DNA of 64,000 bases from positions 3,207,501-3,271,500 of the forward strand of contig NZ_CP045798.1 of assembly GCF_000746025.2 (NCBI RefSeq). The letters are read 5' to 3'. Both the position numbers and the translations under genes were made by a program. This DNA is from Thermanaerosceptrum fracticalcis (GTDB lineage Bacteria > Bacillota > Peptococcia > DRI-13). This document shows, one piece after another, positions 32,456-59,742 of the stretch (position 1 is the stretch's first letter; the number at the start of each line of letters is the position of its first letter). Under the pieces are notes generated by a model that ran no database searches, was not told the origin of the DNA, and was given only the letters and a program-made list of their open reading frames with translations.

Positions 32456-32888
32456 TCTGCCGCTCTTTATGCAGGGCGGCATTTTTATTGCCCTGCTTTT
32501 GGCGGCATCTGTCATCGATATCAAAAAGAGGATTATCCCCGACACTATCTGCCTGTTTATTGCTTTCACCGGACTGATCTGCTTCGAGCCGGTGAAGCTG
32601 TTCGGCGTACTGGCAGCCATGCCGCTCCTGCTTGCCGCGCTTGTTTGGGGCGGCCTTGGGGGCGGGGACATCAAGCTCATGGCGGCATCGGGTATTGTCC
32701 TCGGTTTCATAGGAAGCATTGCGGCCATGGTCATTGGACTTACCGCCATGCTTCTTTTTTATGTTTTCCATGCCATAGTCCAAAGACTGCGCGGGAGGGA
32801 ATGCCCCAAAGCATACCCTCTTGCACCCTTTTTATCCATCGGCTGTATCGCCATATATTTCATGAATACAGGAGGAATCATCCTATGA
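32445..32888 (+). CDS. Prepilin peptidase (TadV/CpaA, A24 family)
   Basis: A 147-residue membrane protease with four to five membrane segments. The two catalytic aspartates are in ASVIDIKKRIIPD (near residue 24) and GGLGGGDIKLMAA (near 74), the GGGDxK signature of A24 enzymes. It lacks the N-terminal methylase domain, as TadV/CpaA enzymes do. It would cut the leader of the Tad pilin and minor pilins encoded in the same operon. Its start overlaps the pilin gene and its stop overlaps the CpaB start (ATGA). Confidence 0.88.
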   Translation: MQANLPLFMQGGIFIALLLAASVIDIKKRIIPDTICLFIAFTGLICFEPVKLFGVLAAMPLLLAALVWGGLGGGDIKLMAASGIVLGFIGSIAAMVIGLTAMLLFYVFHAIVQRLRGRECPKAYPLAPFLSIGCIAIYFMNTGGIIL

Positions 32889-36075: not shown

Positions 36076-37001
36076 CTTTTATTCAGCTCATCGCCTGCAT
36101 CGGCATGATTGCCGGTGCTTTTATCTTGCTTGGAATTTCACCCATAGCGTTTACGGACGGCCTGTTCAGCTTTTTGATTAAAAGACCCAAAAGCATCAAG
36201 GATGAAATCAACGAGGCCACCAAGCGCAAGCGCCCTTCCTTCCTCCGCAGGGAGATTATAGAAGCGCAGGAAATTCTCGCGCTGACCGGACGAAGCAGCC
36301 GCTTCTCCCTGATCTGTGCTTGTTCGCTCTTGTTGTTCGCTATAGGCGTAAGTATTGCCATTCTGCTGCAGAATGTGTTCCTCGTCCCTGTCCTTGCGCT
36401 GGGCATGATGTTCCTGCCGTTTTGGTATATCAAGCTGACTGTCACCCACTACAAGAAGAATATTGCTGCAGAGTTGGAAACGGCGCTGTCCATCATCACC
36501 ACGGCTTACCTGCGAAACGAGGACATTGTGACTGCCGTGGAGGAAAATATGCAATACTTAAACCCGCCGGTGCGCAATGTATTTGCCGGGTTTCTGACAC
36601 AGGTGAGGCTCATCAACCCCGATGTGGATGCGGCACTGAAAACTATGAAGACCAAGATTGACAACGAAGTGTTCCGCGAGTGGTGTGATGCCATTGCCGC
36701 CTGCCAGTATGACCGGAGCCTCAAGACAACGCTGACCCCCATTGTCAGCAAGCTCTCGGATATGCGAATCGTCAACGCGGAGTTGGAATATCTCGTGTTC
36801 GAGCCTCGCAAGGAATTCATCATCATGGCGCTCCTTGTCATGGGCAACATCCCCCTGATGTATTTCCTCAATAAGTCTTGGTATGACACGTTAATGCACA
36901 CATATGTGGGGCAGCTTATCCTTACCATCTGTGCGGCGGCAATTTTTATTTCCACCGCCTTTGTTATTAAGCTGACTAAGCCCATTGAGTACAGGAGGTA
37001 G
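36072..37001 (+). CDS. TadB-like inner-membrane platform protein
   Basis: 309 residues; the start overlaps the TadA stop. One N-terminal membrane helix, a second pair near 80-120 and a C-terminal pair (about 255-305) frame a cytoplasmic T2SSF-like domain (AELETALSIITTAYLRNEDIV). It pairs with the next gene, TadC-like, to form the pilus platform on which TadA acts. The sequence is diverged from proteobacterial TadB; the assignment uses topology and order. Confidence 0.78.
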   Translation: MTFIQLIACIGMIAGAFILLGISPIAFTDGLFSFLIKRPKSIKDEINEATKRKRPSFLRREIIEAQEILALTGRSSRFSLICACSLLLFAIGVSIAILLQNVFLVPVLALGMMFLPFWYIKLTVTHYKKNIAAELETALSIITTAYLRNEDIVTAVEENMQYLNPPVRNVFAGFLTQVRLINPDVDAALKTMKTKIDNEVFREWCDAIAACQYDRSLKTTLTPIVSKLSDMRIVNAELEYLVFEPRKEFIIMALLVMGNIPLMYFLNKSWYDTLMHTYVGQLILTICAAAIFISTAFVIKLTKPIEYRR

Positions 37002-37006
37002 CATAC

Positions 37007-37879
37007 ATGTTGATACTATTATTTTTATTTGCAGTCCTGTTTGCGGCAGGGCTGTTTTTTATTCTCGCGGATGTGCTCAAGCTGCCGACCATGGGAGCAG
37101 CCAAGGCTATGCTCAGTGCCGGTAAGCAGGACAAAAAGGCTGCCAAAACCGTGGATGCGTATTTTATGTCCGGCGCTGTCAGGTTGTCAAGATTTATTCG
37201 CCTGGATGAGTACCGCAAAAGCCGCATGTCCAACGTCCTCAAAGCGGCGGGCATCAGTATGACACCGGAGGTTTACCTTGCGTATGCCTTCGTCAAAGCA
37301 GGAGCGATCCTCCTTGGCGTGATACCCTGCCTGTTCTTGTTCCCGCTGCTTTCCCTGGTGATGGTGCTGCTCGCCGTGCTGGTCTATTTCAAGGAAACCA
37401 GAAAAGCGGATGAGCAGCTGAAGGTCAAACGAGAGCAGATCGAAAGCGAGCTGCCAAGGTTCGTGGCGACCATCGAACAGTCGCTGAAAAGCAGCCGCGA
37501 TGTGCTGTCCATTCTGGAGAATTTTAAGAAAAATGCAGGCGCTGCTTTTGCAAGTGAACTGGACATCGTGACTGCAGACATGCGCTCATCAAGTTACGAG
37601 GCAGCACTCACGCGGTTCGAGGCAAGGCTCAATTCACCGCAACTCTCTGATGTAGTGCGCGGACTCATTGGTGTGCTGCGCGGCGATGACGGCGCAATCT
37701 ATTTTCAGATGCTCGCCCACGATTTTAAGGTGCTGGAGCTGCAAAGACTCAAGGGTGAGGCGCAGAAGATACCGCCCAAAATCCGGATTTTCTCCTTCAT
37801 TATGCTGATATGCTTCCTGTTTACCTATCTCGCCATCATCGGCTATGAGATCATTAAGTCCCTCGGCGGAATGTTTTAG
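37007..37879 (+). CDS. TadC-like inner-membrane platform protein
   Basis: 290 residues, 5 nt after the TadB-like gene, with TACAGGAGGTAGCATAC as ribosome site. It has an N-terminal helix, a hydrophobic pair near 90-130 and a C-terminal helix (about 262-288) around a T2SSF domain (ELPRFVATIEQSLKSSRDVLSILENF). It forms the membrane platform together with the TadB-like protein. Confidence 0.82.
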   Translation: MLILLFLFAVLFAAGLFFILADVLKLPTMGAAKAMLSAGKQDKKAAKTVDAYFMSGAVRLSRFIRLDEYRKSRMSNVLKAAGISMTPEVYLAYAFVKAGAILLGVIPCLFLFPLLSLVMVLLAVLVYFKETRKADEQLKVKREQIESELPRFVATIEQSLKSSRDVLSILENFKKNAGAAFASELDIVTADMRSSSYEAALTRFEARLNSPQLSDVVRGLIGVLRGDDGAIYFQMLAHDFKVLELQRLKGEAQKIPPKIRIFSFIMLICFLFTYLAIIGYEIIKSLGGMF

Positions 37880-37893
37880 GGAGGGGATTTGAG

Positions 37894-38295
37894 GTGCTAA
37901 AAAAACTATTGCATTGTAAGGGCGGTGAGGGCTACATCGATGTGGCGATACTGGTACTTTGCGCCATGCTTGTCATTGCTCTTGCCGTCAAGGTATTTCC
38001 GGTCTACATCGCCAAGAGCCAACTTGACACCTTTGCCTCGGAACTTTGCAGAGAAGCGGAGATTGCAGGCAGGGTCGGCAGCGAAACGAACCAAAGGGCG
38101 CAGGTGTTGCGGGAAAAAACAGGACTTGATCCCGCCATTTCCTGGTCAAAGACCGGCAAAATCCAGCTCAATGAAGAGTTCACGGTGACCGTTTCCATGC
38201 AGACCGACATCGGACTCTTTGGCGGTTTCGGCTCCTTTCCCATTACTCTGACCGCACAGGCGACAGGCAAAAGCGAGGTGTATTGGAAAAAATGA
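37894..38295 (+). CDS. TadE-like minor pilin (DUF4320-like)
   Basis: 133 residues from GTG 37894 after GGGAGGGGATTTGAG. A short leader (LKKLLHCKGG) is followed by EGYIDVAILVLCAMLVIAL, a prepilin-type helix with cleavage after Gly and Asp at +5, the same arrangement as in the 32222 protein. The mature domain is about 100 residues and beta-rich. It is probably a minor pilin of the Tad fibre, processed by the A24 peptidase. The stop overlaps the next start (ATGA). Confidence 0.75.
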   Translation: MLKKLLHCKGGEGYIDVAILVLCAMLVIALAVKVFPVYIAKSQLDTFASELCREAEIAGRVGSETNQRAQVLREKTGLDPAISWSKTGKIQLNEEFTVTVSMQTDIGLFGGFGSFPITLTAQATGKSEVYWKK

Positions 38296-38837
38296 CAAAA
38301 TTATATGGTATACTAAAGGAAAAAAAAGGATCGTCATTCCCATTGGTTGTTGCCATCACCCTCGCGCTTGGCATCATCCTGTGCGGAATATCCGAATACA
38401 TGAGGCTCATGATCATCGCCTCCGGTGTTCGGGATGCGGTGCAGTCTGCCATCATTTCGACAGTTAACGACAACTATGATGATGTTTACCACGGCGTTCG
38501 GGAGGGCTATGCAGGAGGGTATAAGCCAAGCGGTTCCTCATGGGAGGGCAGCATTGACTACGGCGATATTTATGAGTATCTTGACAATACCCTTGGCTTG
38601 CAAAAAAACGGCGGCTATCATGTGAAATACGCAGGCGAAGCGGTGGAATTCAAGCTCTCCGGTTTATCCGTCGATATTACTAATGTGCCCCTTGCACCCT
38701 CCGACTCCGACAGTGCGCAGGGCCTTCTCGCCGATGCGGTGTTCCGGCTGGAGGTTCCGGTGTCCTTTGGCGGCAAATCCCTGCCGCCGATGCGGATGAA
38801 CCTTAAGGTGCAGGCGAAATATATGCCTTTATTTTAA
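38292..38837 (+). CDS. TadF/TadG-like pilus-associated protein
   Basis: 181 residues from ATG 38292; an in-frame TTG nine nt earlier is possible. A basic leader (LYGILKEKKG) precedes SSFPLVVAITLALGIILCG, a single membrane helix with a prepilin-like Gly at -1 but no acidic residue at +5. The extracytoplasmic domain is about 140 residues. Position and topology fit a TadF/TadG pseudopilin. It ends the Tad operon; the following DUF6550-like gene has its own ribosome site. Confidence 0.65.
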   Translation: MTKLYGILKEKKGSSFPLVVAITLALGIILCGISEYMRLMIIASGVRDAVQSAIISTVNDNYDDVYHGVREGYAGGYKPSGSSWEGSIDYGDIYEYLDNTLGLQKNGGYHVKYAGEAVEFKLSGLSVDITNVPLAPSDSDSAQGLLADAVFRLEVPVSFGGKSLPPMRMNLKVQAKYMPLF

Positions 38838-41765: not shown

Positions 41766-42626
41766 ATGTTCATATGGGATTTTGCTGCTGACACTGTCCT
41801 CGGACAGATTATGGACTGGATCTATGCTCAGATAATCGGCTTTCTTGGTGAATTCTTCGCTATGATGGGCAACATGGGAGCCGAGCTGTTCGAGATGAGC
41901 TGGGTGCAGGCTATTGTGCTGTTCTTTTCCTATCTTGCATGGGCGCTTTATGGGACAGGGCTTGTGGTTTCCGCCTTTGAATGCGGTATTGAATACCAAA
42001 GCGGCAGGGGCAGCATCAAGGACACCGCTTTAAATGCCATCAAGGGCTTTATGGCTGTCAGCCTGTTTACCATTGTGCCGGTGGAACTGTACAAGCTGGC
42101 GATTACCCTGCAGGGCGTCTTCACATCCGGCATCACAGGACTTGCGGCGGCAGACAGCCGCATTAGTATCATGGCTGCCGCTGCCCTTGCCAGCATAGGC
42201 GATGTCTTAGTTAGTCCCATTATGGGGATATTCTGTTTGATCCTCATGGGCTATGCGGTAATCAAAGTGTTTTTTGCCAACCTCAAGAGAGGGGGAATTC
42301 TGCTCATCCAGATTGCCGTGGGCAGCTTGTATATGTTCAGTGTCCCCAGAGGATATATAGACGGATTCGTATCATGGTGCAAACAGGTGGTGGGCTTATG
42401 CCTGACCGCATTTTTGCAGGCGACCATCCTCATTGCAGGGCTCATGGTGTTTAACAGCAACATGCTTCTAGGCCTTGGCCTTATGCTTGCAGCTTCAGAG
42501 ATACCACGGATTGCCGGGCAGTTCGGGCTTGACACCAGCACCAGGGGCAACCTCATGAGTACCATGTATGCGGCGCAGACTGCGATGAACATTACGCGCA
42601 CAGTGGTAAGGGCGGTGGCAAAATGA
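41766..42626 (+). CDS. VirB6/TrbL-like polytopic channel protein (CD1107-like)
   Basis: 286 residues with about six membrane segments and conserved small-residue-rich stretches (AADSRISIMAAAALASIGDV, GLMLAASEIPRIAGQFGLDT). The family name used for clostridial elements is TrbL/CD1107. It forms part of the inner-membrane channel of the T4SS. GAAAGGAGTGAACTTATAA precedes the ATG. It overlaps the next gene by 4 nt. Confidence 0.8.
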   Translation: MFIWDFAADTVLGQIMDWIYAQIIGFLGEFFAMMGNMGAELFEMSWVQAIVLFFSYLAWALYGTGLVVSAFECGIEYQSGRGSIKDTALNAIKGFMAVSLFTIVPVELYKLAITLQGVFTSGITGLAAADSRISIMAAAALASIGDVLVSPIMGIFCLILMGYAVIKVFFANLKRGGILLIQIAVGSLYMFSVPRGYIDGFVSWCKQVVGLCLTAFLQATILIAGLMVFNSNMLLGLGLMLAASEIPRIAGQFGLDTSTRGNLMSTMYAAQTAMNITRTVVRAVAK

Positions 42627-43192
42627 CGGATACGAAGCTGGTCTATATTTGTTCTCCCTATGCCGGAGATATTGAATATAACACCAAAAGGGCAATAGCA
42701 TACTGCCGCTATGCCGCAGACTGTGGCGTAATTCCCCTGGCTCCACATTTGCTGCTGACGAGATTTCTCTGTGAATCAAATCCAGCAGAACGAGAGCTGG
42801 GAATCAAAATGGGGCTTAAGCTTCTTGCCTTATGCTCTGAGCTGTGGGTGTTCGGTGATAGGATATCCGAGGGTATGCGGCGTGAAATTCAGGAAGCCGA
42901 AAGGCTCGGGATTAAAATTATTTTTCAAGATTCAAATAAAATTCAGGGAGTGATGAACATGAAGCGATGGGGAATTTGGGCAAAGCGCAGTGCTGCCTCT
43001 ATCTTCGGCGCTGCTGAAGATTGGCTGAAATCGGAAGGAAAGGTGCAAATCTTTGATACTTATGAGGAAGCTGCCGAGAAAGCAAGCACACTTATGAAAA
43101 ACATTGGCACGGCAAATGTCTCCTACTATCCCAAGGAAATAGAAATTGAACTAAATGAAGATCAATCCCCTGGCATAAACATGAAGCTATAA
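42623..43192 (+). CDS. Nucleoside deoxyribosyltransferase-like protein (DUF4406/DUF7768) with tail domain
   Basis: 189 residues, overlapping the VirB6-like gene. The N-terminal 110 residues have the nucleoside 2-deoxyribosyltransferase-like fold signature (LVYICSPYAGDIEYN, APHLLLTRFL, ELWVFGDRISEGM). The remaining 75 residues (KRWGIWAKRSAASIFG to the end) look like a separate small domain. An internal GGGAGTGATGAAC before ATG 42959 could allow the C-terminal part to be made alone. The protein ends in NEDQSPGINMKL, the shared Met tail. Its enzymatic activity, if any, is unknown; homologues bind nucleotides. Confidence 0.72.
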   Translation: MTDTKLVYICSPYAGDIEYNTKRAIAYCRYAADCGVIPLAPHLLLTRFLCESNPAERELGIKMGLKLLALCSELWVFGDRISEGMRREIQEAERLGIKIIFQDSNKIQGVMNMKRWGIWAKRSAASIFGAAEDWLKSEGKVQIFDTYEEAAEKASTLMKNIGTANVSYYPKEIEIELNEDQSPGINMKL

Positions 43193-44117: not shown

Positions 44118-44331
44118 TATATAACAAATATGCAATAAAAACAGGTTAAAGGAAGTCATGCGGTTTTTGCACATGCCGATACCAAAGCTGGACAGCAGCA
44201 TGGATATTGCAGCTATAGCATAATAATAATCGCTAATCAGGTCTTCTGAATTATGATACAATAATCATATATAAAGTAAATGGTACTATTGAAGCTATTG
44301 GGATATGCTAAAAATAGATGGAGGTGTTAAT

Positions 44332-44655
44332 GTGGAAAAACGAATACAGGATGAGTTGAATATCCTTAAAGATATCATAGTAAACACCGTTCCGGTAGAG
44401 CAGATATTCCTGTTCGGCTCCTATGCAAACGGTACACCACATGCTGATTCAGACCTGGATATTTATGTGGTGATGCCGGAGAATGCAAATATTAGAGAAA
44501 TTGATGCAATAAGGTTGATTCACAGAGCAATTCGGGATAAAAAAACAATGCCTGTGGATGTGATAGTCAGCAAAAAAAATAAGTTTAATCAGCGCAAATC
44601 CACTCCCACCATTGAGCGGCAAATAGCACAAGAGGGGATGGTGCTGTATGGATAG
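44332..44655 (+). CDS. mntA: MNT-type minimal nucleotidyltransferase (antitoxin)
   Basis: 107 residues from GTG 44332 after GATGGAGGTGTTAAT; the 9-codon upstream ATG extension lacks a ribosome site. The nucleotidyltransferase signature GSX10DXD is intact: GSYANGTPHADSDLDIYVV. In HEPN/MNT systems the MNT protein neutralises the HEPN toxin by AMPylation. Its stop overlaps the HEPN start (ATGGATAG), so the two are co-translated. Pfam-type MNT proteins of this size are typical. Confidence 0.88.
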   Translation: MEKRIQDELNILKDIIVNTVPVEQIFLFGSYANGTPHADSDLDIYVVMPENANIREIDAIRLIHRAIRDKKTMPVDVIVSKKNKFNQRKSTPTIERQIAQEGMVLYG

Positions 44656-45091
44656 CCGCACTCGCGCACAGGAATGGCAAAGACTTGCGGAAATGGATTT
44701 AAGCAGTGCTGAATATCTGCTCAAAATGCACCCTGTACCTGTTGAGATCATTTGTTACCACTGCCAGCAATCTGCTGAGAAATATCTTAAAGGATACCTT
44801 GTTTTGCACGGCATAAATCCGCCTAAGATACATGATTTAGACGAATTGTGCAAGCTCTGTATGAAATGGTCCGACACCTTTAAAGATATAGCCGACCAAT
44901 GCTCCGACCTGACAGCTTATGGCGTTCAGCCGAGGTATCCAATGGAAATGATGCTGGAAGAGCAGGATATGTGGCAAGCGCTGAATAGTGCAAAAACAAT
45001 TCGGGATTTTATTCTAACCCTTGCGCCGGAGATGGTGCCGGAGGAACATGGACAGGACGAATCACAATCGCAGGACAGTCCTTCATTATAG
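44648..45091 (+). CDS. HEPN-domain protein (toxin partner of MNT)
   Basis: 147 residues, overlapping the MNT gene by 8 nt. Signature ICYHCQQSAEKYLKGYLVLHG and KIHDLDEL match the PF05168 HEPN class. The RNase motif Rx4-6H is not visible, unlike HepT toxins, so ribonuclease action is uncertain; RYPMEM near 105 matches the conserved RYP of this subgroup. The C-terminal tail (EEHGQDESQSQDSPSL) is acidic and Gln/Ser-rich and lacks Met. The pair sits inside the T4SS operon. Confidence 0.85.
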   Translation: MDSRTRAQEWQRLAEMDLSSAEYLLKMHPVPVEIICYHCQQSAEKYLKGYLVLHGINPPKIHDLDELCKLCMKWSDTFKDIADQCSDLTAYGVQPRYPMEMMLEEQDMWQALNSAKTIRDFILTLAPEMVPEEHGQDESQSQDSPSL

Positions 45092-45665: not shown

Positions 45666-47498
45666 ATGCCAAAAACAAATCGAATGAATACTGCCGTGGC
45701 GCAGGAGGACGTGCGCATACAGGAATTTCTAGACATGATCGCACCGTCGGTTATTAAATTCAACACCGACCACTTCATCTGCGGCAATACCTACCGCTGC
45801 GTGTGGGCGCTTCGCGAGTACCCCACCGCTACAGAAGAACAGGCAATCCTGCGCCACCTTGGAGAGAAGGACGGAGTCACTTTAAAAATATATACCCGCC
45901 ATGTCACGCCGGTGGAGGAGAAGAAAATTATCAGCAATGCGGCAAACAAGAACAGGCTAAAGAGAAGCAACACCAATGATTTGCAGCAGACCGTCACTGC
46001 TGAAAGCAACCTGCAGGATGTAGCCTCCATCGTAGCCAGCATGCACCGGAACAAAGAACCGCTGCTCCATACCGCCGTCTACATTGAGCTTTTAGCATAC
46101 GACCTTGAGCAGTTAAAGCTGCTGCAGACCGAGGTGCTGACCGAACTGATCCGCTCTAAGCTCAACGTTGACCGCCTCATGCTCCGCCAGCAGCAAGGCT
46201 TTATATGCGTGATGCCTTCCGGCTGGAATGTGTTCGGCGATCAGTTTGAGCGGGTGCTGCCGGCATCCTCCGTTGCCAACCTTTATCCCTTCAACTACAG
46301 CGGCAAAACCGACGAGCGCGGGTTTTACCTCGGCAGGGACAAATTCGGCAGCAACATCCTTGTGGATTTCAACAAGCGGGCCGATGACAAGACCAACGCC
46401 AACATCCTGATCCTGGGCAATTCCGGCCAGGGCAAAAGCTATCTATTGAAACTTATCCTCACCAATCTGCGGGAGTCCGGCATGCATGTGCTGGCTTTAG
46501 ACCCTGAGATGGAATACGAGGAACTGACGGTAAACCTCGGCGGCTGCTTCATAGACCTCATGTCCGGCGAATATATCATTAATGTGCTGGAACCGAAAAC
46601 ATGGGATGAAAACGGCGACCCCAGGGATGCTGAAGCGCCGCAGGCGTTCCGGCAGACCTCCAAACTCAGCCAGCACGTCAGCTTTCTCAAGGACTTTTTC
46701 AGAACCTACAAGGATTTTGACGACCGGCAGATCGACACCATTGAAATCATGCTGGGGAAACTGTATGAGCAATGGGGCATCACGGACCACAGCAACTTTG
46801 ACCGGCTTAAATCCACCGATTATCCCATCCTGTCCGACCTGTATGAGCTGATTGAAAACGAATACAAAACCTTTGATGAAAGCAAACGCCAGCTCTATAC
46901 CGCAGAAATCCTGCAGCAGATCTGCCTTGGACTCCACTCCCTATGCAAGGGTGCGGAGTCTAAATTTTTTAACGGGCACACCAACATCACCAGCAGCCAT
47001 TTCATCACCTTTGGTGTGAAAGGACTGCTGCAGGCAAGCAAAAATATCCGCAATGCCCTGCTGTTTAACGTGCTGTCTTTCATGTCCAACGAGCTTTTAA
47101 CCAAGGGCAATACGGTAGCAAGCATCGATGAGTTTTACCTGTTTCTTACCAACCTCACAGCGGTCGAGTATATCCGCAACTTTATGAAGCGTGTCCGCAA
47201 AAAGGACAGTGCCGTGATCCTTGCCAGCCAGAACCTGGAGGATTTCAATATTGACGGCATCCGGGAATATACCAAGCCTTTGTTTTCCATACCGACTCAT
47301 GCCTTCCTCTTTAATGCCGGAAATATTGATGCCAAATTCTACATCGATACCCTGCAGCTGGAGCAGAGCGAATATAACCTGATCCGCTACCCGCAGCGCG
47401 GTGTGTGTCTCTACAAATGCGGCAACGAGCGGTATAACCTCATGGTGACCGCGCCGGAACACAAGGCAAGGCTCTTTGGAAGGGCGGGCGGCAGATGA
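45666..47498 (+). CDS. VirB4/TraE-family conjugation ATPase
   Basis: 610 residues. The Walker A is LILGNSGQGKSYLLKL (about 250) and the Walker B region is TVASIDEFYLFL. It also carries the VirB4-type LASQNLEDF, and the N-terminal part NTDHFICGNTYRCVWALREYP is typical. This is the motor that drives assembly and substrate passage through the T4SS. The start follows CGAGGAGAGGAGATGATGCA. The N-terminal partner protein is at 43505. Intact motifs indicate a functional ATPase. Confidence 0.92.
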   Translation: MPKTNRMNTAVAQEDVRIQEFLDMIAPSVIKFNTDHFICGNTYRCVWALREYPTATEEQAILRHLGEKDGVTLKIYTRHVTPVEEKKIISNAANKNRLKRSNTNDLQQTVTAESNLQDVASIVASMHRNKEPLLHTAVYIELLAYDLEQLKLLQTEVLTELIRSKLNVDRLMLRQQQGFICVMPSGWNVFGDQFERVLPASSVANLYPFNYSGKTDERGFYLGRDKFGSNILVDFNKRADDKTNANILILGNSGQGKSYLLKLILTNLRESGMHVLALDPEMEYEELTVNLGGCFIDLMSGEYIINVLEPKTWDENGDPRDAEAPQAFRQTSKLSQHVSFLKDFFRTYKDFDDRQIDTIEIMLGKLYEQWGITDHSNFDRLKSTDYPILSDLYELIENEYKTFDESKRQLYTAEILQQICLGLHSLCKGAESKFFNGHTNITSSHFITFGVKGLLQASKNIRNALLFNVLSFMSNELLTKGNTVASIDEFYLFLTNLTAVEYIRNFMKRVRKKDSAVILASQNLEDFNIDGIREYTKPLFSIPTHAFLFNAGNIDAKFYIDTLQLEQSEYNLIRYPQRGVCLYKCGNERYNLMVTAPEHKARLFGRAGGR

Positions 47499-47561: not shown

Positions 47562-48599
47562 TTGGAGATGAAGGACCAGCGCTTCGGCATCGAAATCGAA
47601 TTGACGGGACTGTCCCGTCTGCGCGCTGCCCAGGTTATGGCGGAATACTTCAGCACGCCGGTTTCCCATGACGGGGGCTATTACGGCATCTATTCTGTCC
47701 TGGACGGCCAAAGCCGCCGGTGGAAGGTCATGAGCGACGGCAGCATCACTACAGAGAAAAAAGAAGGACGGCGGATTATTCCGGCCGACAGCACCTATAG
47801 CGTGGAGCTGGTCAGCCCCATCTGCAGGTATGAGGATATCGAAACCATACAGGAAATCGTCCGCAAGCTTCGTGCCGCAGGAGCCATCGCCAACGCAAGC
47901 TGCGGCATCCATGTCCACGTGGACGCTTCGCCCCACAACGCCAACACCCTGCGCAACATTACTAACATCATGGCCAGCAAGGAGGACTTGATCTACAAGG
48001 CGCTGCAGGTGAGCGTGGCACGGGAACGCCGCTACTGCAAAAAGGTGGAGCAGAGCTTTTTGGAGGAACTCAACCGCAAGAAGCCGAAAACCCTGGAGCA
48101 GGTCAGCCGGATCTGGTACAACGGCAATGACGGCAGGCATGAGCATTACCACAACAGCCGCTACCACTGTTTGAACCTCCACAGCGTGTTCCAGAAGGGT
48201 ACGATTGAATTCAGGCTGTTCAACGGCACCACCCATGCCGGAAAGATCAAGGCATACATCCAGCTCTGCCTCGCCATAAGCCATCAGGCACTGACACAGA
48301 GGTGCGCCAGCCGCATTAAAACTCAAAGCACCAATGAGAAATATACCTTCCGCACCTGGCTTTTAAGGCTCGGCTTAATCGGCGATGAATTCAAAACCGC
48401 ACGGCTACATTTGCTGGAGCATCTAGACGGCTGTATCGCCTGGAAAGACCCCCAGCAGGCCGAGCGGCAAAAGGAACGATTAAAGCAGAAGAAGGAAAAG
48501 GAACAGGCACAGGCAGCCGCAGCTTTGGAAGAACAAAATCAAGAGGACATCGAACAGACCGAGGCCGAAGAATGCCCAGGTCTTTCTATGTCCATGTAG
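47562..48599 (+). CDS. Amidoligase-family protein with GLSMSM tail
   Basis: 345 residues from TTG 47562 (AGGGGGTGAAGG ahead), or ATG 47568. It matches the amidoligase enzyme family: RFGIEIELTGL at the N-terminus, SVELVSPICRYED, and CGIHVHVDASPHN with the family's His pair, plus IEFRLFNGTTHAGKI. These ATP-grasp-like COOH-NH2 ligases form amide bonds; literature links them with GGCT genes in phages and conjugative elements. The next gene is indeed GGCT-like. The C-terminus is a Gln/Glu/Lys-rich helix (KEKEQAQAAAALEEQNQ) ending in EECPGLSMSM, the shared tail. Confidence 0.82.
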   Translation: MEMKDQRFGIEIELTGLSRLRAAQVMAEYFSTPVSHDGGYYGIYSVLDGQSRRWKVMSDGSITTEKKEGRRIIPADSTYSVELVSPICRYEDIETIQEIVRKLRAAGAIANASCGIHVHVDASPHNANTLRNITNIMASKEDLIYKALQVSVARERRYCKKVEQSFLEELNRKKPKTLEQVSRIWYNGNDGRHEHYHNSRYHCLNLHSVFQKGTIEFRLFNGTTHAGKIKAYIQLCLAISHQALTQRCASRIKTQSTNEKYTFRTWLLRLGLIGDEFKTARLHLLEHLDGCIAWKDPQQAERQKERLKQKKEKEQAQAAAALEEQNQEDIEQTEAEECPGLSMSM

Positions 48600-48614
48600 G
48601 AGGACTGATAAAAC

Positions 48615-49109
48615 ATGAAAAGCAAAACCTTGTACATTGCGTACGGAAGCAATCTCAACCTGCAGCAGATGGCATTTAGATGCCCCACTGCCAAGGTAAT
48701 CGGGGCAAGTAAAATTAAGGATTATGAGCTGCTGTTCCGTGGCGGTCGCAGAGGTTCGGTAGCAACGGTGGAACCTCTCAAGGGAAGCCATGTTCCTGTT
48801 CTTTTATGGGAACTGAAAGAAAAAGACCTGCAGGCTCTTGACCGTTATGAGGGGTATCCCCATTTTTACCGCAAGGAAATCCTTGATGTCGAGCTTAACG
48901 GCAAGACCATTTCTGCGATGGTTTATATCATGAACGACGGGCATCCCTTCGGCGCGCCCTCGGATTACTACTTGAACACCATTTTGGAAGGCTATGAAAG
49001 CGCGGGCTTTGACACCGAGGTTCTGGAACAGGCAGTGGAAAAATCCATCCGGCTTGCTAAGGAACAACAGCCGGAACAGGAAAACCTGTTTGGCCTGAAA
49101 TGGTGGTGA
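48615..49109 (+). CDS. Gamma-glutamylcyclotransferase-like protein (GGCT/AIG2)
   Basis: 164 residues, 15 nt after the amidoligase with AGGAGGACTGATAAAAC between. The GGCT fold is seen in YIAYGSNLN, ALDRYEGYPHFYRKEI with its catalytic-type Glu (YEG), and AMVYIMN. Family enzymes release 5-oxoproline from gamma-glutamyl peptides. The amidoligase/GGCT pair suggests making and unmaking of a gamma-glutamyl or isopeptide link in peptide or cell-wall material. Confidence 0.85.
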   Translation: MKSKTLYIAYGSNLNLQQMAFRCPTAKVIGASKIKDYELLFRGGRRGSVATVEPLKGSHVPVLLWELKEKDLQALDRYEGYPHFYRKEILDVELNGKTISAMVYIMNDGHPFGAPSDYYLNTILEGYESAGFDTEVLEQAVEKSIRLAKEQQPEQENLFGLKWW

Positions 49110-49113
49110 GAGC

Positions 49114-50205
49114 ATGGCTGATCCCGCAACCATCACCCTTGCGGTCAGGGCGGTCATCGCCGCGGCAACCAACAAAAGGACATGGAAGGCTGTCGGCGTT
49201 CTTGTCGCCGCCATCCTGACGCCCTTCATCCTTATCGTTGTAATGATCGTGAGCCTGCTCTCGGCTGCGGCGGATCACAACAGCAACGCCATAGAATTGT
49301 GCTTCAACGGCGGCGCGATCTCTTCCCGGGTTCCCTCCGATTACGCCACCTATATCCGAGATATGCAGGATAGCTTCGCCATGCTTGACACCGTCATCTC
49401 CGGTATATCATCACTGGTGGAGGGCGGTAGCATCGACAGTACAAGGGTTAAGGCGATTTTTTATTCTCTGTTCTTCGGCTCTGAAAATCTGCGGATGGAC
49501 AGCTCGGACTACCGTGCCTTTGCTGACTGCTTCGTCCGTTATGAAACCCGCACCCGAGCCGTGGACAATGGCGATGGCACAACCTCGGAGGAAGAATACA
49601 CCGTAGCTGTACCGCTTAAATCACTGCCGGAAATTTACGGAAACCTTCAGAGCACCCTTGGTAGGACCATCACCTATGAGGAACAGGCCAACGCTTCGGA
49701 GATTTACTACCGAATTAATTACGGCGGCAGTGTCCCCACTTATGGAGAAGAATTCGATGCTTGGGTAAACGGACTGCCGCTGTCCGATGCACCCTTTACC
49801 GGCGTGGACGGTTTCTGTTCTCCTCTCGGGGAAAACTGGCGCAGCATGGTTACCTCGGAATTTGGCTACAGAACCGATCCTTTCACCGGCCAGCGCAGAG
49901 GACATTCCGGACTGGACATGGGAGCGTCCAAAGGCACACCGATCCATGCAGCCCTTGATGGTACTGTGCTGTTTGTGCGCTATAAGAACACAGGCTACGG
50001 CTATCATCTGGCCATTGACCACGGCGGCGGTTTCGTCACCATATATGCCCACTGCTCCAAAATCCTTGTCGCTGAGGGGCAGATCGTGAAGGCGGGCGAC
50101 ATCATCGCACAGGTCGGTTCTACAGGCCGAAGCACCGGAGAGCACTTGCACTTTGAGGTACGAGTGAACGGTGAAAAGCAAAACCCAAGAAACTATCTGC
50201 CGTAA
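49114..50205 (+). CDS. M23-family cell-wall endopeptidase (VirB1-like role)
   Basis: 363 residues; TGGTGGTGAGAGC before ATG 49114. An N-terminal membrane anchor (about 30-52), a middle domain without a family and a C-terminal M23 LytM domain with HSGLD (H264, D268) and HLHFE (H344, H346) as metal ligands. It cleaves peptidoglycan cross-links. Together with the T4SS genes it likely opens the wall for the transfer channel, the role VirB1 plays elsewhere; no SLT or CHAP domain is fused. It could also act on cross-bridges formed by the amidoligase. Confidence 0.88.
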   Translation: MADPATITLAVRAVIAAATNKRTWKAVGVLVAAILTPFILIVVMIVSLLSAAADHNSNAIELCFNGGAISSRVPSDYATYIRDMQDSFAMLDTVISGISSLVEGGSIDSTRVKAIFYSLFFGSENLRMDSSDYRAFADCFVRYETRTRAVDNGDGTTSEEEYTVAVPLKSLPEIYGNLQSTLGRTITYEEQANASEIYYRINYGGSVPTYGEEFDAWVNGLPLSDAPFTGVDGFCSPLGENWRSMVTSEFGYRTDPFTGQRRGHSGLDMGASKGTPIHAALDGTVLFVRYKNTGYGYHLAIDHGGGFVTIYAHCSKILVAEGQIVKAGDIIAQVGSTGRSTGEHLHFEVRVNGEKQNPRNYLP

Positions 50206-51211: not shown

Positions 51212-51233
51212 TTTGCCAAGGAGGGAAGAAAAA

Positions 51234-51605
51234 ATGTTAAAGACCAAGGCCATCTTTGAAAGAAAGACCTATGATTTTCAGCCCAGGGACTGCGTTATTG
51301 AAAAAATAATTGAGCTTACTTCACAGCAATACGATGCTTTTTCTAAAAACATGCTGGATGACTATGACTTTATCCAGAACAACATTGATCTCATGTACTG
51401 CGATAGGCAAGGTGTGTATCATTGCCTCTTAGTAGTGGGTGAGGACAGGCCGGACGGTATACTTGTAGAAAGTGAGGGAAGCAGTTACGCCCGCTACGCC
51501 GCATTTCTTCCCAACGCCTGTGATTTTCTCGCTGCGCATCAGGAGCAAACTCAAGGGCTTCATGATGCTGAGCCGGAATCTGCCGGCATGAAAATGAATT
51601 TATAG
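51234..51605 (+). CDS. DUF6329-like cargo protein with GMKMNL tail
   Basis: 123 residues; ATG 51234 follows AAGGAGGGAAGAAAAA. The acidic soluble protein has the region FIQNNIDLMYCDRQGVYHCL and no catalytic motif. The assignment to DUF6329 is from memory of the pattern. The end is a Gln-rich linker (AHQEQTQGLHDAEPE) followed by SAGMKMNL. It precedes another tailed protein by 13 nt. Confidence 0.65.
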   Translation: MLKTKAIFERKTYDFQPRDCVIEKIIELTSQQYDAFSKNMLDDYDFIQNNIDLMYCDRQGVYHCLLVVGEDRPDGILVESEGSSYARYAAFLPNACDFLAAHQEQTQGLHDAEPESAGMKMNL

Positions 51606-51618
51606 GAGGAAAAGAGCC

Positions 51619-51993
51619 ATGAGAGAAACGGAACTGAAGATACTGTTCCCTACGGAGAAGCTGGATGCACTCCGTTTTTTTATGGGCAAAAAGGAGCTGG
51701 ATGTTGAGCAGGAGCTAAAGGATTACCTTGATAAAACTTATGAAAAAGTTGTTCCGGCACACGTTCGAGAATATGTGGAAAGCAGGCTTGACCAAGCATC
51801 ACCGCAGGAGGAAACGCCTGGACAGAGAGCTCAGGAGCAGCAGCCGGAGCCACAAAGGGAACGCCAGTCAAGGCAGACCCGCCGCCAGCGTGAGCAAGAG
51901 GTGTCTGGATCAGCATCATTATCTTCGCAGGCCAGACAGCCGGAGCTGCCGGAAGAACAGGAAGAATCCCAGGGCATGGGCATGAACATGTAA
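51619..51993 (+). CDS. DUF6103-like protein with GMGMNM tail
   Basis: 124 residues after AGGAGGAAAAGAGCC. The N-terminal 57 residues (TELKILFPTEKLDALRFFMG, ELKDYLDKTYEKVVPAHVRE) are homologous to the 53316 protein, a second DUF6103-like gene. The C-terminal half is a low-complexity Gln/Arg/Glu/Ser region ending in EESQGMGMNM, the clearest copy of the shared tail. The low-complexity part is absent from the shorter homologue. Function unknown; the placement beside parM suggests DNA or partition functions. Confidence 0.7.
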   Translation: MRETELKILFPTEKLDALRFFMGKKELDVEQELKDYLDKTYEKVVPAHVREYVESRLDQASPQEETPGQRAQEQQPEPQRERQSRQTRRQREQEVSGSASLSSQARQPELPEEQEESQGMGMNM

Positions 51994-52025
51994 AATCAAA
52001 AAAGAAAAAGGTGGTGCCAATTTCA

Positions 52026-52907
52026 ATGATCAAGGTTGGTGTGGACAACGGAAACTACAACACCAAATCCTCGGAGGGGATGCTCTATGCCTCCGGGTAC
52101 ACCGCAAGCGACAAGGAATTCATCACGCCGGACATGCAGCTCTTCTACGAGGGCAGGTATTACGCCGTCGGCGAGCGGCGTCTGCGCTTTCAGCAGGATA
52201 AAACCAAGGAGCAGGACGCCTTCATTTTGACCTTGCCTGCCATTGCAGACGCCATGAAAAAGGCAGGGACGACCAATGCGGAAATCGCCCTTGGCGTGGG
52301 TCTGCCCATTGACAGCTATGGGACGCAGAAGGAGGCGTTTCGTCGATACTTCCTGCGTGACAATATTTCGTTCCTGTTCGAGGGAACATCTTACCGCTGC
52401 CGCATCGCCGAGTGCAAGGTGTTCGCGCAGGGTCATGCGGCGCTGTGCCGGTATTATACGCGGCTGAAGGATTACCGCAGCATCACGCTGGTGGATATCG
52501 GCGGGTATACGGTGGATGTACTTACACTCCATGACTTCCGGTTGGACAGGTCGAGCTGTGCCAGCCTGCGCATGGGGACCATTACCCTCTACAGCCGCAT
52601 ACAGGATACGCTCCAGCGCAGTGACATCCTCCTGTCGGATGAGCTCATCACCGACGCGATTCGAGGGGATATCCAGCACGCCGACAGCAAATTGATCCAT
52701 GCTGTGGTGGAGCAGGCTGTGGCGGCTTACTGCAAGGAGCTGCTCAATGCGCTCCGGGAGCGCGGACTTGACCTGCGGCTCCCCACGGTGTTCGCGGGCG
52801 GCGGTGCGGAACTGCTGGAACCAATGCTGCACAGGAGCGATCTCAATACTGTGGCGGTGCTGAACCGGTTTGCCAATGCGGACGGTTACAAGCTCCTGAT
52901 GGGGTGA
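52026..52907 (+). CDS. ParM-like actin-family partition ATPase
   Basis: 293 residues; ATG 52026 is 11 nt after AAGGTGG, with two in-frame GTGs upstream that are less likely. Actin-fold motifs: IKVGVDNGNYNTKS (phosphate 1), ITLVDIGGYTVDVL (phosphate 2) and TVFAGGGAELL (adenosine loop). ParM polymerises to push sister DNA circles apart, bound to ParR at parC. It indicates a stable plasmid-like or circular phase of the element. Confidence 0.88.
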   Translation: MIKVGVDNGNYNTKSSEGMLYASGYTASDKEFITPDMQLFYEGRYYAVGERRLRFQQDKTKEQDAFILTLPAIADAMKKAGTTNAEIALGVGLPIDSYGTQKEAFRRYFLRDNISFLFEGTSYRCRIAECKVFAQGHAALCRYYTRLKDYRSITLVDIGGYTVDVLTLHDFRLDRSSCASLRMGTITLYSRIQDTLQRSDILLSDELITDAIRGDIQHADSKLIHAVVEQAVAAYCKELLNALRERGLDLRLPTVFAGGGAELLEPMLHRSDLNTVAVLNRFANADGYKLLMG

Positions 52908-52911
52908 GCAT

Positions 52912-53205
52912 ATGTCCGGGCGAAAACGATACTATCTATCCTTTGATATGGACAACCCAAGGCATCGGGAAGCCGAGGCACTGTTTGCACGGCAGGCCAG
53001 CAGGCAGCGCACCGAGTATGTGGTCACCAGCATCCTGGCGGCGCATCAGACGGAAAGCTTGGAACAGCTTGTCCGGCAAGCGGTCAGGGACGAACTGCGA
53101 AATGCTGTGCCGCCACTGCAAAACACGCTGCATGGGAAAACAAATGCCGATGTTCAGCTGTCCGATCTCCCCGGCAGCCTGATCCATGCACTGGAGGAAC
53201 TGTGA
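52912..53205 (+). CDS. ParR-like centromere-binding protein candidate
   Basis: 97 residues, starting 4 nt after parM with GGGGTGAGCAT ahead. The N-terminal RKRYYLSFDMDNPRHREAEAL and a helical TEYVVTSILAAHQ resemble a ribbon-helix-helix ParR protein. Short C-terminal linker and helix (DLPGSLIHALEEL) would bind ParM. Position after ParM supports it; the sequence alone is weak. Confidence 0.7.
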   Translation: MSGRKRYYLSFDMDNPRHREAEALFARQASRQRTEYVVTSILAAHQTESLEQLVRQAVRDELRNAVPPLQNTLHGKTNADVQLSDLPGSLIHALEEL

Positions 53206-54407: not shown

Positions 54408-56183
54408 ATGCCCAGGATCATATTCAAATACCGGTACTTAAAAAATGCACCCAAAGCACACTTGGTCAATCTTGTAGAATATGTGGCTACCCGTGAGGGT
54501 GTTGAAAAAGTCTCCGACAGCTCACGCCTCCTTCCTGCGACAAAAAACCAGCAGCAGTTGATTTCTGAAATCCTGAAAACGCTGCCGGAAACCTCTGACT
54601 TGTTTGAGTACGAGGACTATCTGAACAATCCTACCAGGGAAAATGCATCGGAGTTTATCTCCATTGCCCTTGAGAACAATCTCGACCTGATTGGTAAAAA
54701 GAAAAACTTTGTAGAATATATCGCCAATCGTCCGAGAGTTGAAAAGATCGGCAGCCACGGACTCTTTACAGATGAAGGTGTACCTGTTGTACTTTCAAAG
54801 GTTGCTGAGGAAGTGTCCAATCATCCCGGAAATGTGTGGACAAATATTGTATCCCTCCGGCGCGAAGATGCAGAGAGGCTGGGATATGACTGCGCAAAAT
54901 CATGGCAGGATTTGATCCGGGCACAACGGAACGTCATCGCGGAAAACATGAAGATCGCTCCGGAAAATTTGCGATGGTATGCTGCTTTTCACAATGAGAG
55001 CCATCACCCGCACATCCACCTGATTGCTTACTCCATCAATCCTAAAGAAGCCTATGTCACAAAGCAAGGGATAGAAAACATGCGGGGAAGTCTTGCACGG
55101 GAAATCTTCCGCCAGGACTTGATGCAGATTTATGAAAAGCAGACGGAACGACGCAATGCTCTGAATAGACAGAGCCGTGTGACCATGCAGGACATCATTG
55201 CTCAAATTCGTTCAGGGATATGTGAAAATAAAAATATAGAGGAATTGATTGCATACCTTGTTGAAAAGCTCAAGCATACTTCCGGCAAGAAGCAATACGG
55301 TTACCTGAAAGCCCCCCTCAAGGCACTTGTTAATCAGATTGTCGATGAGCTTGCAAAGGATGAAAGAGTAGCAGAGCTTTACAGCAGCTGGTACGAAATG
55401 CGTAATGAAGTTTTAAGCACGTATGCTGACAAGCTGCCGCTACCTCTTCCGCTTTCACAGCAGAAAGAATTCAAGAGCATTAAAAACATGGTGATTGCCG
55501 AAGCGTTAAATATCGGCAGTCACCATTTCACTTTTGAGCCGGACGAGGAACAGGATATATCAATAGAAGATGATGGTGATATTACTGCTGCCACCACATA
55601 TTTTGAGAAATCTGCAAAGCTCGGAAATGTCAACGCACAGTATATGCCCGGCAGGATTTATCTCAAATCAGACAGCGAGCATGAAAATATTGAAAAGGCA
55701 TTACAGTGGCTGGGGAAAGCTGCGGACAACGAAAATGCTCTCGCACAGTATGCAATGGGGAAGCTGTACCTTACAGGAAACCATCTAGAGAAAGATGCCG
55801 TAAAGGCTGTGGAACTGTTCACCAAATCTGCAGAACAAGGCAATCAGTATGCGCAATATGCCCTCGGCAAACTGTATCTTTTGGGGCATGATGTCAGGCA
55901 GGATAAGGAAACAGCAGTGTATTGGCTGTCGGCAGCTACAGCACAGGGAAATATCTATGCAAAGTATTTGCTGGAACGCATGGATTCCTTCAAAGACCCA
56001 TCCATACTCCTTGCAGCAACACGCTTGATGCATCACCTGGGCAATATCTTTAGAGAGGAGTATCAGAAAGCTTTTGGCAATCCTCTCGTCCATGTTGACC
56101 GCAAGCTTCGCAAAAAAATCATGGAGAAAAAACTGTCGCAAGGCCACGCATATAACGACCATGCGCCACATCAAAGCTATTAG
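54408..56183 (+). CDS. MobP-type relaxase fused to Sel1-like repeats
   Basis: 591 residues. The N-terminal half is a MOBP-like relaxase with the three-histidine metal motif ESHHPHIHLIAYS (H199-H204) and a fitting N-terminal Tyr-containing segment (FKYRYLKNAPKAH, VEYVATREG). The middle (about 245-380) is helical. The C-terminal part (about 390-540) is a run of Sel1-like repeats (YFEKSAKLGNVNAQYMPGRI, ALQWLGKAADNENALAQYAM, AVELFTKSAEQGNQYAQYAL, AVYWLSAATAQGNIYAKYLL), a protein-interaction solenoid that relaxases usually lack. It nicks oriT and carries the DNA to the channel. Confidence 0.85.
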   Translation: MPRIIFKYRYLKNAPKAHLVNLVEYVATREGVEKVSDSSRLLPATKNQQQLISEILKTLPETSDLFEYEDYLNNPTRENASEFISIALENNLDLIGKKKNFVEYIANRPRVEKIGSHGLFTDEGVPVVLSKVAEEVSNHPGNVWTNIVSLRREDAERLGYDCAKSWQDLIRAQRNVIAENMKIAPENLRWYAAFHNESHHPHIHLIAYSINPKEAYVTKQGIENMRGSLAREIFRQDLMQIYEKQTERRNALNRQSRVTMQDIIAQIRSGICENKNIEELIAYLVEKLKHTSGKKQYGYLKAPLKALVNQIVDELAKDERVAELYSSWYEMRNEVLSTYADKLPLPLPLSQQKEFKSIKNMVIAEALNIGSHHFTFEPDEEQDISIEDDGDITAATTYFEKSAKLGNVNAQYMPGRIYLKSDSEHENIEKALQWLGKAADNENALAQYAMGKLYLTGNHLEKDAVKAVELFTKSAEQGNQYAQYALGKLYLLGHDVRQDKETAVYWLSAATAQGNIYAKYLLERMDSFKDPSILLAATRLMHHLGNIFREEYQKAFGNPLVHVDRKLRKKIMEKKLSQGHAYNDHAPHQSY

Positions 56184-57835: not shown

Positions 57836-57878
57836 GAAAGCCATGTGCGAATGAAAAACCATTGGCGCATGGCTTTCT
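57836..57878 (+). terminator. Hairpin between primase-like and coupling-protein genes
   Basis: GAAAGCCATGtGC and GCgCATGGCTTTC pair around a loop with GAAAAACC and run into TTAATTTT. It may be a leaky terminator. Confidence 0.6.
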
Positions 57879-57903
57879 TAATTTTAAAAGAAGGAGGAAA
57901 CCA

Positions 57904-59742
57904 ATGCAAGCATCACAGGTGGTTACTTTAATCATAGCTGCTGCAACTATGTTTGGAGTCATCGGTTTTATCGTTCTCCTGGCTCATTACTATACATTAA
58001 ACGGCATCAAGGCCAGGACGGTGGGTGACGGTCAGCATGGCACGGCAAGGTTCGCAACGAAGAATGAAATAAAGAAGACCTATGCTCATGTACCCTATGA
58101 GCCGGAACGGTGGCGCAAGGGCATCAACCTGCCCAAGGTGCAGGGGCTGGTTGTGGGATGCAAAACGGCTCCAGGATCGGTCACCGCTCTTGTAGACCAG
58201 GGGGATGTGCATGCATTGATGATCGGTGCGGCGGGGGTCGGCAAGACCGCAAATTTCCTTTATCCCAATCTGGAATATGCTTGTGCTTCCGGGATGAGCT
58301 TTATTACCACCGACACCAAGGGCGACCTTTACAGGAATTACGGATGCATCGCCAAGGACTACTATGGCTACGATGTGTCCGTCATTGACCTGAGAAACCC
58401 TACCCGCAGCGACGGCAACAATATGCTGCACCTTGTAAACAAATATATGGATGAATACCTTGCCAATCCTGATAATCTCCCAGCAAAAGCCAGGGCGGAG
58501 AAATATGCAAAGATTATTGCCAAAACCATCGTTAACTCCGGAGGACTGGATGCAGGCTCCTACGGCCAGAATGCATTTTTCTACGATGCAGCCGAAGGCT
58601 TGCTGACCGCCGTCATTTTATTGGTGGCGGAATACTGTCCAAACGAAAAACGCCATATCATATCGGTCTTTAAGCTCATACAGGACTTGCTGGCTCCTTC
58701 CGGCGTAAAAGGCAAAAATCAGTTCCAGCTGCTCATTGAAAAGCTTCCGTCAGAGCATAAGGCAAGATGGTTTGCAGGAGCGGCATTAAACACTGCGGAG
58801 CAGGCCATGCAAAGCGTCCTGTCGACAGCCCTTTCCCGGTTGAATGCATTCCTGGACTCGGAACTGGAGCAGATACTGTGCTTTGACACTGCCATCGATG
58901 CAGAGCGTTTTTGCAAAAGAAAGTCTGCCATCTTCCTTGTCATGCCGGAAGAAGACAATACAAAATATTTTCTAATTTCTTTAATTGTCCAGCAGCTCTA
59001 CCGGGAGATACTGTCGGTGGCCGATGAACAGGGTGGAAGGCTTCAAAACCGTGTCATGATGTACCTGGATGAGATCGGCACTATACCTAAAATTGAATGT
59101 GCAGAGATGATGTTTTCTGCTTCCCGTTCCCGCCGTGTTTCCATCGTGGCTATCATACAGAGCTTTGCGCAGCTTGAAAAGAATTACGGCAAGGAAGGGG
59201 CTGCCATCATCATCGACAACTGCCAGGATACCATCTTCGGAGGCTTTGCCCCAAACTCGGAATCAGCGGAGATACTTTCCAGAAGCCTTGGCAATAAGAC
59301 GGTTTTATCAGGTTCGGTCACCCGGGGAAAGCATGATCCGTCCCAATCCCTGCAAATGATCCAGCGTCCCCTGATGACTCCCGACGAATTGAAGACCCTG
59401 CCAAAAGGCAGCTTCATTGTCGCAAAGACCGGCGCCTGTCCTATGAAAACCAATTTAAAGCTGTTCATGGAATGGGGCATCCGGTTTGAAAAGGTGTATG
59501 AGCTGCAGGAAAAATCCGCCCGCAAGGTGGCCTATGCTGATAAAAAAGAACTTGAAGAGGAAATCGTCAAAAGGCACATATCATATGAAGATATAGAAGA
59601 ACAGGAACCATACTCCACATCAGCTCAAGGCGGCATATCCCTTGCACCTGCTGAAGAGATTCAGGGGAAAGCATTGAAGTCCAGGCTGCAAACAAAGATA
59701 AAAGCACATAAGCAAATGGAGACTCCGCTGCGCACAGATTAG
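57904..59742 (+). CDS. VirD4/TraG-family type IV coupling protein (CD1115-like)
   Basis: 612 residues; GAAGGAGGAAACCA before ATG 57904. One N-terminal membrane helix (about 5-28), then an ATPase with Walker A MIGAAGVGKTANFLYP, and Walker B region VMMYLDEIGTIPKIE and the TraG-type SIVAIIQSFAQLEKNYG. It brings the relaxosome and protein substrates to the channel and would be the receptor for any T4SS signal carried by the Met tail. The C-terminal 80 residues are hydrophilic. Confidence 0.92.
   Translation: MQASQVVTLIIAAATMFGVIGFIVLLAHYYTLNGIKARTVGDGQHGTARFATKNEIKKTYAHVPYEPERWRKGINLPKVQGLVVGCKTAPGSVTALVDQGDVHALMIGAAGVGKTANFLYPNLEYACASGMSFITTDTKGDLYRNYGCIAKDYYGYDVSVIDLRNPTRSDGNNMLHLVNKYMDEYLANPDNLPAKARAEKYAKIIAKTIVNSGGLDAGSYGQNAFFYDAAEGLLTAVILLVAEYCPNEKRHIISVFKLIQDLLAPSGVKGKNQFQLLIEKLPSEHKARWFAGAALNTAEQAMQSVLSTALSRLNAFLDSELEQILCFDTAIDAERFCKRKSAIFLVMPEEDNTKYFLISLIVQQLYREILSVADEQGGRLQNRVMMYLDEIGTIPKIECAEMMFSASRSRRVSIVAIIQSFAQLEKNYGKEGAAIIIDNCQDTIFGGFAPNSESAEILSRSLGNKTVLSGSVTRGKHDPSQSLQMIQRPLMTPDELKTLPKGSFIVAKTGACPMKTNLKLFMEWGIRFEKVYELQEKSARKVAYADKKELEEEIVKRHISYEDIEEQEPYSTSAQGGISLAPAEEIQGKALKSRLQTKIKAHKQMETPLRTD

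Follow-up and report, generated by a model that had tools for sequence, protein, structure and literature searches.

Three consecutive genes in a type IV secretion system (T4SS) region of Thermanaerosceptrum fracticalcis (GCF_000746025.2, contig NZ_CP045798.1, positions 3,207,501-3,271,500; this 64,000-nt stretch is the window analyzed here) encode an amidoligase, a gamma-glutamyl cyclotransferase-like protein (GGCT) and an M23 endopeptidase, which raises the question of whether the three enzymes act together on the cell wall, as a first-pass annotation of the DNA had proposed, or serve separate ends. A relaxase (MobL), a coupling protein (VirD4), VirB4 and a VirB6-like protein (TrbL_5) are encoded in one region, identifying an integrative conjugative element (ICE) with a T4SS. 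The reading favored here, at a probability of roughly 60%, is that the amidoligase and GGCT form a cassette, shared with phages, that is housed in the T4SS operon of conjugative elements belonging to a large clostridial family, and that the ligase is delivered by a C-terminal tail and acts in the recipient. Cassettes of these two enzymes are known, and here one occurs in a new setting; to a specialist, the surprise would lie in the common address tail.

The three genes lie on the + strand, as do the VirB4, TrbL_5, MobL, VirD4, Tad/Flp-type and tailed-protein genes located below in the window. The Amidoligase_2 protein (345 aa; 47562-48599; Pfam E-value 1.5e-84) starts at a TTG codon preceded by AGGGGGTG, is single-copy in its 3.8-Mb genome, and comprises a catalytic domain (residues ~3-296), a Glu/Lys/Gln-rich helix and linker (297-338) and a terminal tail (339-345). 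A gap of 63 bp separates it from the upstream gene of the VirB4 ATPase (45666-47498; AAA_10/TraG P-loop) and one of 15 bp from that of GGCT (164 aa; 48615-49109; GGCT/AIG2 family, 5.7e-15), which is followed after 4 bp by the gene of the membrane-anchored M23 endopeptidase, the probable wall hydrolase of the transfer machine (49114-50205; 3.7e-34). The Pfam matches confirm the reported succession of genes, and its placement within a T4SS region is correct, as the row is flanked by CpaF/Tad genes and the genes of TrbL_5 (41766-42626; 1.8e-148), VirB4, MobL and VirD4.

The gene order is widely conserved, and the absence of a conserved neighborhood, named beforehand as grounds for refutation, is not what is seen. 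Scanning 84,980 species genomes recovered 80 loci spread over diverse Clostridia (amidoligase identity 63-98%), with VirB4 upstream of the amidoligase in 75/80, GGCT as the next gene in 77/80 and a wall hydrolase directly after GGCT in 74/80; the exceptions are mostly contig edges, together with one fusion and a few broken or rearranged open reading frames (ORFs). In 398 genomes sampled evenly across the phylum, 16 TrbL_5 loci were found: 11 have an amidoligase within ~15 kb, in one case as a split frame; of the other five, one sits on a short contig and four (G122, G302, G259 and G255b) are without the amidoligase. An additional element (G025:C1:832942) considered as an amidoligase-free case was dropped, as it is decayed.

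In sequence and modeled fold, the amidoligase looks intact. It matches the Amidoligase_2 profile (PF12224) at 284 bits against a cut-off of 22, with residues 5-239 spanning profile positions 2-244 of 245, which represents the whole domain. Glu11, Glu13, Asp59, Glu82, His117, His119, Glu216 and Arg218 are invariant among 41 ICE homologs, such that none of the candidate ATP or metal ligands, the loss of which had been raised as a concern, appears to be missing; these residues presumably follow the order of the metal-binding and catalytic residues of gamma-ECS, with active-site roles assigned from the fold and by analogy to gamma-ECS. In an AlphaFold model built from the 41-sequence alignment (mean pLDDT 85.4), the amidoligase adopts the glutamine synthetase/glutamate-cysteine ligase (GS/GCS) fold. 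The model most resembles YbdK (Foldseek E 5e-5; Z 14.5-14.7; rmsd 3.5 over ~230 residues) and also the plant glutamate-cysteine ligase (Z 14.2), E. coli gamma-ECS (11.7), glutamine synthetases (10.7-11.7) and Dop (11.6). While the fold and the expected chemistry are shared with these enzymes, the window ligase is only 8-14% identical to them and has no profile match. NCBIfam assigns no family to the amidoligase or to GGCT.

Most GS-fold enzymes of known activity use the gamma-carboxylate of glutamate, and GGCTs cleave gamma-glutamyl links; thus, a make-and-undo relationship is the natural reading of the two adjacent genes, and GGCT probably reverses or recycles the amidoligase product by analogy to these enzyme classes. 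The GGCT of the window is related to the GGACT/AIG2 family (PF06094; 56 bits) and to human GGCT (2pn7; E 1.9e-9), and its Tyr10, Gly11 and catalytic Glu79 are invariant in 18 sequences that include ICE and phage copies. That the amidoligase and GGCT form a functional pair is upheld by their fixed adjacency in ICEs and phages and by a locus (L077) in which the two are fused in a single 523-aa open frame with both Pfam domains. The ICE GGCTs carry a C-terminal extension (often ending LFGLKWW, as in the window; others are Met-rich or end in LDLKL) that is absent from the phage GGCTs and is possibly a divergent export signal.

The M23 protein appears to be a separate part. Its HSGLD (HxxxD) and HLH (HxH) zinc-ligand motifs are read in the translation, and its Pfam match is 117 bits. 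Across the loci, the N-terminal part of this third protein is retained, while the hydrolase domain varies: some loci have M23, others NlpC/P60, and one (L020) has the two together. The four elements that lack the amidoligase and GGCT retain a hydrolase beside VirB4, and the phage pairs have no hydrolase adjacent. Because the domain is exchanged, the pair can be missing and phages do without the hydrolase, the row makes better sense as a cassette of two genes that sits between VirB4 and the customary wall hydrolase, and the proposal of a single cell-wall-modifying pathway of three enzymes is rejected. The M23 protein would then be the standard wall hydrolase that serves the conjugation channel, probably outside the amidoligase chemistry. 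It shares with CwlT and relatives of Gram-positive conjugation systems the membrane anchor, the M23 or NlpC/P60 domain and the location in a transfer operon, but differs in being split from VirB4 by the amidoligase-GGCT insert.

The ICE amidoligases are set apart from their phage cousins by the C-terminus. In the window, a Glu/Gln-rich linker is followed by PGLSMSM (48576-48596), a proposed T4SS translocation signal, and the model likewise ends in a disordered segment (residues 328-345, terminating in CPGLSMSM), such that the reported tail does exist. Among 72 distinct amidoligase ends, the last residue is Met in 64 and the third-last is Met in 54, while the linker is variable. The extension beyond the core has a median of 54 residues in ICE ligases and 3 in phage ligases. 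Of 157 copies scored in a viral collection, 154 are phage-type and untailed, and 141 of these loci have GGCT and no T4SS gene; two tailed copies are on contigs with T4SS genes, and one (L162) is tailed with no T4SS genes in view. In the latter, the contig ends in the tailed amidoligase and GGCT beside recombinase-like genes (L162:5974-7572), an arrangement that is possibly an insertion into such an element. A T4SS flag on another phage locus (L134) was discounted, as the MobL match is to a short segment of a phage protein and is not a reliable relaxase. The phage cassettes (PHROG 2443 and 2520; Tn6164 Orf22-23, PMC3485107) have the same two adjacent enzymes, with clostridial phage ligases 43-66% identical to that of the ICE, but these ligases end ~3 residues past the core, are untailed and have neither a T4SS nor a hydrolase gene next to them. 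Several clostridial phages encode a second, distant amidoligase-like protein directly 5' of the amidoligase (L165:4925-5815 and L163:644-1732), giving a paralog-ligase-GGCT triad; the paralog is ~27% identical to the window ligase, and the L165 copy has no Pfam match.

The tail is shared by proteins of the element that are otherwise unrelated. A C-terminal Met-x-Met ends 116 of 1499 same-strand genes in the 80 loci, compared to 0/259 opposite-strand genes, 2/8489 shadow ORFs, 0/390 genes in sampled stretches elsewhere in the chromosome of T. fracticalcis and 1/2146 genes in phage loci. A looser pattern, applied to 21 regions of up to ~80 kb (the window being longer), matches ~5% of genes, nearly all on the T4SS strand; as it also picks up ~1.4% of shadow ORFs, single weak matches mean little. 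The carriers include the amidoligase, DUF7768, DUF6103, DUF6329, ArdA, a Toprim primase, Fic, DUF5688 and many proteins with no assigned family. Besides the amidoligase, tailed proteins of the window include a DUF7768 protein ending PGINMKL (42623-43192; Pfam 1.8e-42), a DUF6329 protein ending AGMKMNL (51213-51605; 2e-16), a DUF6103 protein with a Gln/Glu-rich linker and the tail QGMGMNM (51619-51993; 7.6e-10), and a 152-aa protein 5' of the Tad genes ending SGMQMGGM (31654-32112), relatives of which in other elements end GMRMGGM and RMQMGSI.

Homologs found in and out of this context differ accordingly. DUF7768 is tailed in 15/17 copies beside an amidoligase versus 0/8 readable copies elsewhere in the same genomes. 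ArdA has a clear tail in 7/11 and a loose one in 9/11 copies on amidoligase contigs (18-62 kb away), compared to 3/13 elsewhere (L266, L270 and L285), of which L266 shares its contig with Tad and TrbL_5 genes typical of this element family. Phage homologs of DUF6329 end short of the tail. The four elements without an amidoligase keep their tails, including DUF6103 (QGMSMSM; relatives of this family are tailed with and without an amidoligase), primase (NFSMTM and GMEMQ) and ArdA-like (GMQMQ) proteins, and the MobL relaxase of one of these elements (G302) ends EQTPGMTMTM. By this enrichment and these contrasts, the tail is what would be predicted of a C-terminal signal common to the substrates of a T4SS and restricted to the element. 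Its presence on antirestriction proteins, primases, Fic and one relaxase fits a T4SS cargo signal. The literature searched contained neither a description of this motif nor a common translocation motif for Gram-positive conjugation systems.

Taken together, the comparisons suggest that the amidoligase is delivered to the recipient by its tail, and the earlier proposal that the tail would let the enzyme act there is plausible: phage homologs are tailless, ArdA, primase and a relaxase are tailed, and tails are lacking elsewhere. In the proposed mechanism, the amidoligase would function as an ATP-dependent carboxylate-amine ligase of the GS/GCS fold, the ICE form of which appears to have gained a Glu/Gln-rich linker ending in (G/A)-(M/L/F)-x-M-x-M. 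The ligase would be made in the donor, where the tail may be read as a C-terminal address by the VirD4/T4SS machinery (VirD4/TraG coupling protein, the proposed tail receptor; 57862-59742; T4SS-DNA_transf 5.2e-44), and would cross into the recipient together with the DNA. Once in the cytoplasm there, the enzyme would gamma-glutamylate, or amidate a glutamyl carboxylate of, a target and so aid establishment; the tailless phage ligases would act likewise in the infected cell. GGCT has no Met tail in the window and would work first in the donor and afterwards in the transconjugant, undoing or recycling what the ligase makes, while the M23 protein would serve as the general wall hydrolase of the channel with no part in this chemistry. 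A bolder version is put forward tentatively and is doubtful as a whole: one portable Met-x-Met address would mark the entire protein payload (antirestriction proteins, primase, Fic, DUF7768, the amidoligase and proteins with no assigned family) across a Gram-positive T4SS family that is widespread, with the amidoligase injected as an effector to mark recipients by gamma-glutamylation and GGCT as the donor/transconjugant antidote.

Several observations weigh against delivery by the tail or against parts of this mechanism. The 80 loci and the ArdA and DUF7768 sets were chosen via the amidoligase and are related by descent, which leaves their counts non-independent; no probabilities are attached to them. 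The MobL relaxase, the canonical substrate of such a system, is untailed in the window (54408-56183; Pfam 3.3e-37) and in 56 of the 59 relaxases with C-termini compared, with one clear and two weak tails in the remainder. The motif is degenerate, and only 9/21 primases and 13/29 members of the ArdA cluster are tailed. A residue-level alignment to the active sites of GCS2/YbdK was not obtained (no PDB profile match; hhalign probability 0.4%). The notion that GGCT stays behind may be wrong, given the ICE-specific extension; some relatives of the window GGCT have Met-rich or tail-like ends, the latter including one element. The MobL relaxases mostly share a basic end, KKxAQGHxxDD(H/R)E, which is a candidate relaxase-specific recognition signal; since most relaxases are untailed and have this end of their own, relaxase and protein cargo would be recognized differently.

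Other explanations must account for the same pattern. The amidoligase-GGCT pair might modify peptidoglycan precursors (e.g., the carboxylates of D-Glu or meso-diaminopimelate) in the donor or the recipient and so shield the wall against the hydrolase of the element itself, lethal zygosis, or redundant mating or phage infection. This view, which is that of the first-pass annotation, is close to a proposal for phage amidoligases. The amidoligase of phiEco32 is said to modify cell-wall receptors (Iyer et al. 2009, as cited in PMC11318856). A wall hydrolase adjoins the pair in nearly every locus, and gamma-glutamyl chemistry suits the gamma-linked D-Glu of the wall; however, the swap of M23 for NlpC/P60 leaves the pair unchanged, the hydrolase stands without the pair in four elements, and in the two phage regions viewed closely the pair is near terminase, HNH or methylase genes, not lysis genes. 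No finding of this analysis singles out the wall as the amidoligase substrate, and a peptidoglycan target is considered possible yet not probable. The methylase and HNH genes, together with ArdA as a frequent companion in the elements, could instead point to hypermodification of nucleobases with amino acids, by which transferred or phage DNA would evade restriction, but base-modification enzymes were not seen among the annotated genes of the element and the GGCT pairing speaks for gamma-glutamyl amides, making this very improbable.

Two further alternatives concern the tail itself. As the ligase fold is common to the Pup enzyme Dop, and as the ligase and several other element proteins bear the tail, the tail could be a Pup-like tag, with its C-terminal carboxylate ligated to amines by the amidoligase and the tag removed by GGCT. 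The tails that persist in elements without an amidoligase, the near absence of tailed proteins from phages with both enzymes, and a terminal residue that is Met or Leu rather than Glu led to rejection of the tail as a substrate tag of the amidoligase, for which hardly any likelihood is left. The tail could also be a degradation or localization signal or a contact with the T4SS base, with the amidoligase working in the donor only, for instance on T4SS or pilus proteins. Co-encoding of the tailed proteins with the T4SS and the untailed state of most relaxases are in accord with such a role, but ArdA, primase, Fic and the one tailed relaxase all have work to do in the recipient, and a donor-only tail is, on balance, doubtful. 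Delivery of the ligase to the recipient remains the preferred reading.

The transfer region holds further gene sets of interest. A set of Tad/Flp-type genes (32445-38837) encodes prepilin peptidase-like, RcpC/CpaB, CpaE-like, CpaF, TadB-like, TadC-like, DUF4320 and TadE/F-like proteins, identified by Pfam where named, with TadB, TadC, TadE/F and the prepilin peptidase assigned by gene order and sequence character. These pilus genes are kept 5' of TrbL in relatives and might build a mating surface structure of this Gram-positive element family. A nucleotidyltransferase and HEPN-like pair of the MNT/HEPN toxin-antitoxin type lies within the T4SS operon (44305-45091), and EQGMTME forms the tail of a HEPN-like relative in one amidoligase-free element (G255b). 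An actin-like (ALP_N/MreB-like) gene and small partner, resembling a ParM/ParR pair, are at 52011-53205 and are kept in many relatives; in Geobacillus phage GR1, an actin-like gene likewise adjoins the amidoligase-GGCT pair.

Transfer of proteins through a conjugative T4SS has precedent. F-type plasmids (pED208) deliver proteins that aid establishment (PMC8406263), and the Sog primase, the VbhT Fic toxin and the F 'conjutome' (PMC11288057) provide known substrates, some with C-terminal signals; the primase and Fic classes recur in the element family of the window. By contrast, signals of the F system vary, may be internal as well as C-terminal and are not reported to share a motif, whereas here one short Met-rich motif is found on many unrelated families in Gram-positive elements. 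The Legionella Dot/Icm signals (E-block and terminal hydrophobics) similarly place hydrophobic residues at the very C-terminus, behind a stretch rich in acidic residues, a resemblance only, as Dot/Icm is of another T4SS class and the window tails have a Met-x-Met register and a Glu/Gln mixture.

Protein delivery by Gram-positive conjugation systems is, to our knowledge, poorly described. If the tail is a signal, the injected payload of a common family of clostridial elements, including those of the gut, would be readable from sequence, and there would be an explanation for how ArdA and primase could work in the recipient ahead of any gene expression there. The amidoligase-GGCT cassette, long without a known use in phages, would likewise gain a cell and a time of action.

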